Position numbers and translations under genes: made by a program. Shown one piece after another: positions 4,383-34,656 of a stretch of 37,063 nt of DNA (the first letter of the stretch is position 1; every line of letters starts with the position of its first letter). Under the pieces are notes generated by a model, which saw only the letters and a list, made by a program, of their open reading frames with translations, was not told where the DNA came from and did no database searches. The stretch spans positions 1 to 37,063 of the forward strand of contig JAKSSR010000006.1 of NCBI GenBank assembly GCA_024402995.1, written 5' to 3'. Source of the stretch: Clostridia bacterium. Lineage in GTDB: Bacteria > Bacillota > Clostridia > Peptostreptococcales > Anaerovoracaceae.

Positions 4383-4419
4383 ATATTGTACCATAGCGCC
4401 CATTGCTGTGGTACAATAT
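4383..4419. promoter_or_regulatory. Symmetric divergent promoter, HAD operon / galK operon
   Basis: An 11-bp perfect inverted repeat, ATATTGTACCA (4383-4393) and TGGTACAATAT (4409-4419), separated by 15 bases. Each arm contains an extended -10 (TGGTACAAT) pointing away from the other, towards HAD on the minus strand and galK on the plus strand. No good -35 is visible for either. It could also be a repressor operator. Confidence 0.6.
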
Positions 4420-7609: not shown

Positions 7610-7989
7610 TTGAATCTGGTGTACTTGTCCTTGGGTTTTCCTTCGGGACTGTCGGCCGCTCTTTCAAAACCGATGTATTCAGAACCCTGAAAACTCAGCT
7701 TCCCGGTCCAGCCAGGCTCAATGGCATCGAACTGTTCCTTGGTCAGGAAGAAAGAATACTTGGCGCCTTCGCCTGTAGTCTCGATAAAAAGAGAACGGTA
7801 GAGAGGCTTGCGGTAGCTGTGAGTATCCTCCTGAAGACCGTCGATAACAACATCAACAGTAAGCACAGGCTGCTTGCTGTTTTTATTTTTCTCGTGAGCG
7901 CCGAAAAGCACTGTGGATAAAACTATAATCCCCGCGAGAGCAGCTATACATAAAAAAACAACGCCGATGGGGGTGCCGTAAAGCATCAT
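7606..7989 (-). CDS. DUF2500-like membrane-anchored protein
   Basis: A 127-residue protein with one N-terminal transmembrane helix (VVFLCIAALAGIIVLSTVLF) followed by a soluble beta-rich domain. The ending, LTKEQFDAIEPGWTGKLSFQGSEYIGFER, matches the pattern of the DUF2500 family (a GD/GW-x-G-x-L-x-F-G-x-x-x-x-F end). Function is unknown. The soluble part could sit outside or inside the membrane; the helix followed by basic KNKNSK does not settle it. Two ATG codons lie in tandem, with AGGAGG upstream of the first. It is divergent to the SseB-like gene and convergent with the 114-residue gene. Confidence 0.72.
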   Translation of the reverse strand: MMLYGTPIGVVFLCIAALAGIIVLSTVLFGAHEKNKNSKQPVLTVDVVIDGLQEDTHSYRKPLYRSLFIETTGEGAKYSFFLTKEQFDAIEPGWTGKLSFQGSEYIGFERAADSPEGKPKDKYTRFN

Positions 7990-8011
7990 TGTAGTGTCCT
8001 CCTGAGTAACT

Positions 8012-8040
8012 TGTGGTATAATAACTAAGTTATTGTATCA
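8012..8040. promoter_or_regulatory. Face-to-face extended -10 elements
   Basis: The plus strand carries TGTGGTATAAT at 8012-8022, firing towards the SseB-like gene. The minus strand carries TGATACAAT at 8032-8040, firing towards the DUF2500-like gene. Between them AATAACT (8020-8026) and AGTTATT (8028-8034) form a palindrome around one base. The expected start sites lie inside the palindrome, so the two transcripts' 5' ends would nearly touch or overlap. Confidence 0.55.
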
Positions 8041-8061
8041 TAAAGCAAACGGAGATTCACT

Positions 8062-8673
8062 ATGGAATATGTAACAAGAGAAATGCTGGAGAGCGGAGAG
8101 ACCCTCCTCTCCCTTAAAAATACCTTTCTTGAAGAACAGAGCGGAGGAAATTTCATGGCCATGCTGGCCTGTATCATGGACTCTGTCGTCTGGGTCCCCG
8201 GCAAGCTTGTGTTCAGCGATGACGACCTTTCCAAAATTGTCAGCGGTCAGATCGGAGAGACCCTGAGAAACAGCGACGCCATCCGCTTTGTCCCCACCCT
8301 TTTCGGCACAGAGGAAGGCGGACGCTTCTACCCCATGTTCTCCAACGAGGCTCAGATCCCTCAGGAATTCTCTGACAGCAACTCACTTGTTGCCATGACG
8401 GGAGCCGAGTGCATACGCAGGGCCCGCGGCAGCAAAAACGCTGCGGGAGTAGTCCTTGACCCTCTCACTCAGGTCTGCACCATGCCCATGAACTACGTTG
8501 AGCTTATCGACAAACTGGAAAGCAGACTTTCTCCCGAGCAGCAGGAGGAAGACAAGGCTCATCCCATCAAGAACATGAAGCTTATAGTTCCCAAAGACGA
8601 TCAGGCAGCCGCCGAAGCAGAAGAGATCGCCAGAGCCAAGGCAGCTCAGGCAGGCCCTGTAATGCCCAACTAA
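8062..8673 (+). CDS. SseB-family protein
   Basis: A 203-residue soluble protein resembling the SseB N-terminal domain family (enhanced serine sensitivity). The diagnostic stretches are SVVWVPGKLVFSDDD, the strand before FVPTLFGTEEGGRFYPMFSN, and AAGVVLDPLTQVCTMPMNYV, which match the family's VP...LP.FTS.ea pattern and its hydrophobic closing strand. The tail from about residue 155 is charged and helical and ends in an Ala-rich stretch. The biochemical role of the family is not established. It is expressed from the extended -10 at 8012-8022, with GGAG before the start. Confidence 0.72.
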   Translation: MEYVTREMLESGETLLSLKNTFLEEQSGGNFMAMLACIMDSVVWVPGKLVFSDDDLSKIVSGQIGETLRNSDAIRFVPTLFGTEEGGRFYPMFSNEAQIPQEFSDSNSLVAMTGAECIRRARGSKNAAGVVLDPLTQVCTMPMNYVELIDKLESRLSPEQQEEDKAHPIKNMKLIVPKDDQAAAEAEEIARAKAAQAGPVMPN

Positions 8674-8728
8674 ACCGATGATCCGGCCCAAGGCCTGACC
8701 ATAAATATTTTATTAAGGAGAGTGCTTT

Positions 8729-8764
8729 TTGATTAAGTACGACACACTGGAGATTGTAGGCTGA
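8729..8764 (+). CDS. Putative 11-codon leader peptide
   Basis: AAGGAG at 8715-8720 is followed eight bases later by TTG and an open frame reading MIKYDTLEIVG, ending in TGA at 8762-8764. The stop lies one base before a strong hairpin stem. The good ribosome binding site and the placement suggest a translated leader that controls the GNAT gene at 8842. The short length and TTG start make it tentative. Confidence 0.35.
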   Translation: MIKYDTLEIVG

Positions 8765-8765
8765 C

Positions 8766-8799
8766 CGGGAGGTTTGCTTACGATCAAACAAACCTCCCG
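8766..8799 (+). promoter_or_regulatory. Leader hairpin with anti-Shine-Dalgarno arm
   Basis: An 11-bp perfect stem: CGGGAGGTTTG (8766-8776) with CAAACCTCCCG (8789-8799) and a 12-base loop. No T-run follows, so it is not a standard intrinsic terminator. Its right arm holds CCTCC (8793-8797), which could instead pair with GGAGG (8830-8834) of the GNAT ribosome binding site. Confidence 0.5.
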
Positions 8800-8841
8800 C
8801 CCTTAGGCAATTGACGTCAACAATTTTCAGGAGGAAAAACA

Positions 8842-9468
8842 ATGAATAAAAATGACTATACCATTCGTTTAGAAAGACCCGAAGACTACAGAGAAGTAGA
8901 AAACCTTGTCAGAGAAGCATTCTGGAACGTTTATCACCCCGGATGCAGCGAGCACTACGTTATCCACGTTCTCCGCGACGATCCCGCCTTTATCAGGGAA
9001 CTGGATCTCGTCATGGAGCAGGACGGCAGACTCATAGGCCAGAACATGTTCATGAAGACGGTCATCAACGGCGATGACGGAAGAGTGATCCCCATTCTTA
9101 CCATGGGTCCCATAGGTATTACGCCCGAGCTGAAGCGTAAGGGTTACGGCAAGATCATTCTTGACTATTCTCTGGAGAAAGCAGCTGAAATGGGCTTCGG
9201 AGCAGTTCTCTTTGAGGGGAACATAGGCTTTTACGGACACAGCGGCTTTGATTACGCAAGAAATTTCGGTATCAGATATCACGATCTTCCGGAAGGAGCA
9301 GATGATTCTTTCTTCCTTTGCAGGGAACTGATCCCCGGTTATCTTGATGATGTCACAGGTGTTTATCAGACTCCGGCCGGCTACTATGTAGATCCGGCTG
9401 AGGTCGAAGAGTTCGGCAAGGACTTCCCGGCAAAAGTCAAGCTCAAGCTGCCCGGACAGTTAGACTAA
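8842..9468 (+). CDS. GNAT family N-acetyltransferase
   Basis: A 208-residue acetyltransferase, not closely similar to the GNAT at 879-1418. It begins YTIRLERPEDYREVENLVREAFW. It shows the acetyl-CoA loop in ITPELKRKGYGKIILDYSLE and the YhbS-like GNIGFYGHSGFDYARNFG, so it belongs to the predicted small-molecule N-acetyltransferase group. The C-terminal half, about 155-208, adds a short domain (GYLDDVTGVYQTPAGYYVDP) common in Clostridia homologues. The acceptor is unknown. AGGAGG at 8829-8834 sets the start. The 168-base leader upstream holds the possible regulatory peptide and hairpin, and a terminator follows. Confidence 0.9.
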   Translation: MNKNDYTIRLERPEDYREVENLVREAFWNVYHPGCSEHYVIHVLRDDPAFIRELDLVMEQDGRLIGQNMFMKTVINGDDGRVIPILTMGPIGITPELKRKGYGKIILDYSLEKAAEMGFGAVLFEGNIGFYGHSGFDYARNFGIRYHDLPEGADDSFFLCRELIPGYLDDVTGVYQTPAGYYVDPAEVEEFGKDFPAKVKLKLPGQLD

Positions 9469-9496
9469 ACGAAAGGCCTTTTGCAAAGGCACAGAA

Positions 9497-9545
9497 AAGC
9501 CCCGCCCGAGAGGAACTATGTTCTTCTTGGACGGGGCTTCGTGTT
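9497..9545. terminator. Bidirectional intrinsic terminator
   Basis: Arms at 9497-9516 and 9520-9539 (AAGCCCCG...GAAC with GTTC...CGGGGCTT) pair over about 20 bases with a few mismatches and a three-base loop. T-rich ends on both sides serve the converging GNAT gene and the small coiled-coil gene. Confidence 0.85.
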
Positions 9546-9567
9546 TTCAGGTTCCTGAAGATAAAGA

Positions 9568-9843
9568 CTATTCGGTCTTTTCTCCCTGGAGTTCAGCGAT
9601 CTTTGCCTTGAGCTCCTCGATCTGAGCGTTGCAGCCGGAGAGCTTTTCAATGAGTTCGGGGAACTTTTCTGCTGCCAGTTCGGGGCATTCTGCTACGAGC
9701 TTGGTACCGATCTCGGTGAAGATCTTCTTCATGTCAGCTTCCTGGCTTCCGATCTGGACCTTGCACTTTGCGACTTCTGCAGCTGCCTTGCCCTTATCCA
9801 GTGCTTCCTTGCCCTTTTCGCCTAACTTATCAAAAAATGCCAT
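9568..9843 (-). CDS. Small helical coiled-coil protein, 91 residues
   Basis: A soluble, almost wholly helical protein: MAFFDKLGEKGKEALDKGKAA, then IFTEIGTKLVAECPE, ending in the coiled coil NAQIEELKAKIAELQGEKTE. It resembles the N-terminal helical part of Clostridia proteins that usually finish with a CxxC zinc ribbon, but here the zinc ribbon is absent. The start is the ATG at 9843, preceded by AAAGGAG; a longer frame to 9888 has no such site. It lies downstream of the diaminopropionate ammonia-lyase gene with an 81-base gap that contains a small AAGGG/CCCTT hairpin (about 9889-9903). Function unknown. Confidence 0.75.
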   Translation of the reverse strand: MAFFDKLGEKGKEALDKGKAAAEVAKCKVQIGSQEADMKKIFTEIGTKLVAECPELAAEKFPELIEKLSGCNAQIEELKAKIAELQGEKTE

Positions 9844-15025: not shown

Positions 15026-15061
15026 AAAGCGTTGGAATTCCAATAATTCCAACGCTTTTTT
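15026..15061. terminator. Intrinsic terminator
   Basis: A perfect 14-bp stem, AAAGCGTTGGAATT (15026-15039) with AATTCCAACGCTTT (15045-15058), followed by further Ts. It ends the ADP-ribosylglycohydrolase transcript and may also serve the MATE gene from the other side. The rest of the gap from 14963 shows nothing further. Confidence 0.88.
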
Positions 15062-30843: not shown

Positions 30844-30884
30844 AAAACGGAAGAGAGATTTCAAGGAATTCTCTCTTCCGTTTT
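30844..30884. terminator. Bidirectional intrinsic terminator
   Basis: A perfect 15-bp stem, AAAACGGAAGAGAGA (30844-30858) with TCTCTCTTCCGTTTT (30870-30884), and an 11-base loop. It serves the zinc-ribbon gene and the converging gmk-rpoZ operon. Confidence 0.9.
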
Positions 30885-34615: not shown

Positions 34616-34656
34616 AAATGGTTACATTTCACATTTCTGAAATGTAACCATTTTTT
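34616..34656 (+). terminator. Intrinsic terminator of yicC
   Basis: A perfect 15-bp stem, AAATGGTTACATTTC (34616-34630) with GAAATGTAACCATTT (34639-34653), an eight-base loop and a T6 tail. Confidence 0.92.

Follow-up and report, generated by a model that had tools for sequence, protein, structure and literature searches.

Introduction

Translational attenuators of the ermC and cat type combine a short translated leader with mutually exclusive RNA folds, one of which masks a Shine-Dalgarno sequence, and the position of the ribosome decides which fold prevails. In the repY-repZ system of IncI plasmids, leader translation and a pseudoknot control downstream initiation; the pseudoknot forms after the leader has been translated and is activating. 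In Listeria, the hflXr/rli80 attenuator carries a 14-codon leader ORF ahead of a gene for a ribosome-associated GTPase, is induced by ribosome inhibitors, and relies on an RLR macrolide motif and on premature termination of transcription (PMC6310831).

The element described here lies ahead of a GNAT N-acetyltransferase gene in a stretch of 37,063 nucleotides from a Clostridia bacterium, referred to here as the window. As at hflXr/rli80, a short leader ORF can stand before a ribosome-associated GTPase gene, but our element has neither a terminator nor an RLR motif. It has in common with the ermC/cat-type attenuators the short translated leader, the exclusive folds, the masking of a Shine-Dalgarno sequence and the dependence on ribosome position. 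It differs from them in several respects: the fold predicted to leave the gene open (ON) is the thermodynamic default and includes a pseudoknot to which the leader contributes its own codons, masking is predicted to follow when a ribosome completes the leader, an arrest motif was not seen, and other genes are controlled. In both the repY-repZ model and ours, leader translation and a pseudoknot jointly govern downstream initiation; here, however, the pseudoknot uses leader codons and is predicted to be broken by leader translation.

Results

A short leader frame is conserved ahead of a hairpin

A sequence-only reading of this DNA had proposed a translated leader, a hairpin and an anti-Shine-Dalgarno arm upstream of the GNAT gene. 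All of the features that it named (AAGGAG, a TTG-started frame, TGA, the hairpin, and CCTCC with GGAGG) are present, all on the + strand. The leader Shine-Dalgarno sequence AAGGAG is at 8715–8720, and its GGAG columns are more than 90% conserved in 61 relatives. The leader ORF (8729–8764) starts with TTG, encodes MIKYDTLEIVG and ends with a TGA at 8762–8764, one base ahead of the hairpin. No promoter-like site was found in 7900–8860 of the window, and the DNA ahead of the leader yielded no promoter at a consistent position, so a leader-carrying transcript is assumed.

The same reading had called for a conserved frame and a covarying stem in relatives, and on both counts the comparison bears it out. 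Among 140 distinct GNAT upstream regions compared, 63 loci have the leader, stop and hairpin in register before orthologous YhbS-like genes, and no trace of the element was seen in most of the rest. A first covariance model, built from 61 GNAT-linked elements, detected the element in 64/350 genomes of the family and 56/394 of the order, and a second model detected it in 33/391 genomes of the class and 17/299 of the phylum; E-values from these models are rough, and many of the sequences come from metagenome assemblies. It is this conservation, at the GNAT loci and in the covariance-model matches, that makes the observation real, as the hairpin itself is not unique.

Two types of leader can be told apart. 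In type A, represented by 90 relatives, leaders of 10–12 codons start with TTG (83) or ATG (7) and stop just ahead of the hairpin with TGA (43), TAA (30) or TAG (17), all at one site; among carriers the leader stop is usually 1–2 nt upstream of the hairpin. Type B leaders (e.g. ...EIVANREVCDR*) read through the left arm of the hairpin and stop in its loop. Judged by their frames, both types would place a terminating ribosome on that left arm. The short upstream ORF, with a Shine-Dalgarno sequence of its own, is conserved as an ORF, as is looked for in an attenuator. One relative has a 30-nt, frame-keeping insertion within the leader, followed by a GNAT frame of just 15 aa.

The hairpin and the masking helix compete for CCTCC

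The hairpin, H1, is formed by a left arm, Hl (CGGGAGGTTTG, 8766–8776), and a right arm, Hr (CAAACCTCCCG, 8789–8799), which pair perfectly over 11 bp. Hl is Shine-Dalgarno-like and occupies the anti-Shine-Dalgarno sequence CCTCC (8793–8797) in Hr. RNA from 8700–8860 folds at z = -3.7 relative to dinucleotide shuffles. The window has perfect hairpins of 11 bp at five sites, compared to 0–2 in order-1 random windows, so the hairpin alone is not unique and proves little; the other long perfect hairpins are at 4383–4419, 15026–15058, 30844–30884 and 34616–34653. Across relatives, the GGGAGG/CCTCCC core of H1 is nearly invariant and the inner pairs covary, and a near-invariant CCTCCC core within a covarying stem is expected where CCTCCC has a second partner. 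In one relative, a long extra hairpin lies inside the loop.

The second partner suggested by the sequence-only reading was the GGAGG (8830–8834) of the GNAT-gene Shine-Dalgarno sequence AGGAGG (8829–8834), and it was precisely this pairing, CCUCC::GGAGG, that RNAalifold chose on 61 aligned relatives. The consensus is a masking fold in which this helix encloses a second stem between S1 (AATTG, 8809–8813) and S2 (CAATT, 8821–8825). H1 was not chosen; the MAFFT alignment misplaces H1 in a few rows, and for this reason it is weaker in the consensus. Both-sided changes were seen at two S1-S2 pairs, in 5 and 7 sequences, and once at CCUCC::GGAGG; in relative L078, the anti-Shine-Dalgarno and Shine-Dalgarno sequences are altered together (UA, columns 107/150). 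Among divergent relatives, which were split into two subsets, S1 against S2 scored z -3.4 in one and -4.2 in the other. For the structure comprising H1, S1-S2 and the pseudoknot described below, 90.3% of cells pair, compared to 30–52% when the structure is slid, and both-sided changes affect 29 cells, compared to 8.7 in shuffles. The locus can thus adopt mutually exclusive folds, H1 or CCUCC::GGAGG with S1-S2, of which the latter masks the gene's Shine-Dalgarno sequence, as in an attenuator.

Two other pairings should also be noted. S2 can alternatively pair with the end of the leader (segment R, below) in an outer stem (CTGGAGATTGT/ACAATTTTCAG) that dominates the single-sequence fold of the free RNA and was considered as the key alternative; its covariation is weak (z -1.6, -2.8 and -2.7), so it was demoted to a secondary pairing. 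In one constrained fold, the freed CCTCC pairs with the GGAG of the leader's own Shine-Dalgarno sequence (8715–8720), which could give feedback on leader initiation.

The last leader codons pair with the hairpin loop

Segment R (GATTGTAGG, 8752–8760), which comprises the last leader codons, is complementary to loop segment L (CTTACGATC, 8777–8785), giving an H-type pseudoknot. In the window, the core pairs 8752–8757 (GATTGT) with 8780–8785 (ACGATC), and extends to 9 bp if all of 8752–8760 and 8777–8785 are included. The best-duplex score for R and L was 15.18, compared to 13.26 ± 0.31 on re-pairing, and was above all 400 re-pairings. Permutation of duplex energies over 82 cluster representatives gave z -11, a value reached by 0/2000 shuffles, and three separate subsets gave z -8.9, -5.0 and -2.7; these permutation and shuffle tests leave some relatedness among the sequences in. 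The 5' part of the leader showed no clear signal against the loop (z -1.3). Moreover, a change of the leader Val codon (GTN) to Ala (GCN) goes with a change from A to G at the facing base of the loop (Fisher p 5e-4), with approximately 9 changes of the leader base inferred by parsimony on the protein tree. Comparison across relatives therefore shows that the last leader codons and the hairpin loop form a covarying pseudoknot. The hairpin and leader of the sequence-only reading are retained; it lacked the leader-loop pseudoknot, the stem enclosed by the masking helix and any downstream gene other than the GNAT.

The element precedes three gene families

In the window, the gene predicted to be controlled (8842–9468, + strand) encodes a protein with a GNAT domain (Pfam PF13527, E 3.5e-06). 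Its AlphaFold model has a pLDDT of 90 and matches E. coli YhbS best among PDB entries (4rs2, E 1.8e-11). By sequence, the closest solved structures are 4zbg and 4rs2, and more distant fold matches include Ard1, RimI, Eis and AAC(2'). By sequence and predicted fold, the product is YhbS-like, with a fold that would suit a protein, ribosome or antibiotic substrate alike. A second, distant GNAT homologue (28% identity) is encoded at 915–1412 on the - strand of the window. Many genomes of the same family encode close relatives of the GNAT protein, as do rumen and gut Clostridia more widely. GNAT relatives approximately 80% identical occur across differently classified lineages, which suggests that the gene has spread horizontally. 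Named plasmids that carry the element before a GNAT gene include pSRC1 of the cultured Selenomonas ruminantium TAM6421 and the conjugative pMM59_01 of Pusillibacter faecalis.

Divergent copies, which occur across Bacillota, add two families to the downstream genes: an RsgA-paralogue GTPase and an RNHCP protein. Full reading of 58 such copies placed 21 before an RsgA-like gene, 17 before RNHCP and 16 before GNAT, with classes assigned by motif and representatives checked by Pfam; the remaining 4 were unclassified and include one that is masked and one without a readable start. The RsgA-like product scores 167 bits against TIGR00157 (curated cut-off 100). Each of four carriers checked encodes a second, shorter RsgA of ~300 residues at another place in its genome, and the controlled gene is therefore taken to be a paralogue. 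Three genomes have the element before two families: RNHCP and RsgA-like genes in G621 and G588 (the RsgA-like gene of G588 being partly masked), and GNAT and RsgA-like genes in G688.

Discussion

We propose, with a probability of roughly 0.6, that the element is a leader-ORF translational switch in which unfinished leader translation induces the gene and a completed leader represses it. In free RNA, or when ribosomes start the leader without finishing it, H1 and the pseudoknot would sequester the anti-Shine-Dalgarno sequence and leave the GNAT start open (ON). A ribosome at the leader end would cover R and Hl and free CCTCC, such that the masking fold closes the gene start (OFF), and type B leaders, which run through Hl into the loop, would be a second way of opening H1. 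On this proposal, ribosome transit would be sensed and the sequence of the peptide would carry little weight. The inducing signal is probably impaired translation, i.e. a blocked or slowed leader, for example under a ribosome inhibitor. We infer both the direction of control and the signal, the evidence being comparative throughout.

Computed energies for the window, which omit kinetics and pseudoknots, are -18.0 kcal/mol for H1, -10.2 for the R-L duplex and -5.7 for the masking fold. Because H1 is so much more stable than the masking fold (about -18 compared to about -6 kcal/mol), the ON fold should be the default and the OFF fold should need a ribosome; completion of the leader should then repress, and a blocked or stalled leader induce. 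The sequence-only reading had described the usual erm-type logic as reversed. That description is not supported, since with the hairpin state thermodynamically dominant it is passage of a ribosome to the leader end that would repress, and the model is one of ordinary attenuator logic with different wiring. Induction would be expected from a stall ahead of the hairpin or from a leader that is no longer translated, and only a stall at the very end would repress.

Modelled accessibility of the gene's Shine-Dalgarno sequence, with ribosome footprints imposed and the pseudoknot ignored, is consistent with this direction. For type A elements, mean accessibility was 0.50 in free RNA and fell from 0.55 to 0.26 when the ribosome was moved from the leader start to the stop (p 6e-11); the change was smaller for type B (0.37, 0.40 and 0.24; p 0.02). 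The corresponding unpaired probabilities for the window were 0.87, 0.92 and 0.33, with the last value ranging from 0.05 to 0.54 for slightly different footprints and longer RNA, and hence sensitive to the exact footprint. Of the earlier proposal, translation of the leader, a function for the hairpin and release of the anti-Shine-Dalgarno arm by a ribosome at the leader end are supported, and the RNAalifold consensus is the very pairing that it had named. After release of the ribosome H1 should re-form, so that OFF would need frequent leader initiation; as a counterpoint, the leader start is mostly a weak TTG. In two variants ahead of an RsgA-like gene (L243, 1501–1600, and L272, 1542–1641), Hl is lost while the leader start, CCTCC and GGAGG are kept; by the model, these should be locked OFF or differently controlled.

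Other explanations account for parts of the same evidence. The leader could encode an arrest peptide: in response to a small molecule, the ribosome would stall on the EIVG or EIVA end or at the stop, holding H1 open and the gene OFF, or an earlier peptide-specific stall would turn the gene ON, as in systems of the erm, cat or TnaC type. This would fit the position of the stop, 1–2 nt ahead of H1, and the Glu-Ile-Val/Ala-small C-terminus conserved in 90 leaders. However, the conserved end codons are those that form R, and it is their bases that are conserved (GAG in 68/90, ATT in 76/90), and type B leaders end in different peptides. Across the whole leader, 31/84 changes are synonymous (23 expected, p 0.04); within R, which is also base-paired, the count is 12/19 (6 expected), and outside R it is 19/65 (17 expected). 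As the synonymous excess is modest and located in R, we see little to suggest a conserved arrest peptide, and we regard this explanation as unlikely. With the peptide showing little sign of constraint outside the pairing segment, the element would seem to sense ribosome transit and not to work through an arrest peptide. A ligand- or protein-binding RNA, i.e. a riboswitch-like pseudoknot to which the leader frame is secondary, seems slightly less probable still. A covarying H-type pseudoknot with conserved bases in the loop is what such an RNA might present, but the loop is highly variable in length and sequence, the start, stop and frame are kept in leaders of 10, 11 and 12 codons, and a terminating ribosome would reach H1 with either of the two leader endings. 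Nor was an Rfam family matching the element found: Rfam 15 gave only chance-level, sub-threshold hits in 8500–9600, all outside the element, and no match on the elements of 11 relatives. Guanidine-II (mini-ykkC), suggested by the loop ACGA, was rejected, as relatives do not keep the loop as an ACGR tetraloop.

We place even less weight on coupled or standby translation, in which leader ribosomes or the GGGAGG arm would feed the GNAT start and leader translation would activate. While GGGAGG is Shine-Dalgarno-like and directly follows the leader stop, the GNAT start is 77 nt past that stop, and the covarying masking helix would then be without a role. It is very improbable that the strong stem, which is downstream of an SseB-domain gene, serves as a transcription terminator or attenuator of that gene: no T-run follows the stem in the window, a T-run is present in only 3/111 relatives, a scan of the + strand gives no terminator, and the leader frame and masking helix would be left unexplained. 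We therefore favor the leader-ORF switch.

More tentatively, and at slightly less than even odds, these elements may constitute a class of ribosome-transit switches that is uncatalogued, spans the phylum Bacillota and marks a hidden translation-stress set, comprising the YhbS-like GNAT, the RsgA-paralogue GTPase and the unstudied RNHCP protein, with roles in ribosome protection or repair. If this is correct, an uncatalogued class of translational attenuator would be widespread in gut and environmental Bacillota, and also present on plasmids. Three poorly understood families would be linked to ribosome status, which would offer a direct, testable lead to what they do, and the element could serve as a ready-made reporter of impaired translation. 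In the open-licence literature we found nothing specific on the GNAT, RsgA or RNHCP families with leaders or attenuation, and a description elsewhere is possible.

Some further occurrences were noted. The element and its GNAT gene are present on three contigs of a viral collection. A truncated match before a DNA alkylation repair gene and a weak match before an unrelated 285-aa protein were set aside as remnants or chance. In one order-level relative (L219), a strong Rfam match to Enterococcus sRNA 1300 (RF02862, E 1.3e-48) is found at 2558–2785, downstream of an RsgA-like gene.
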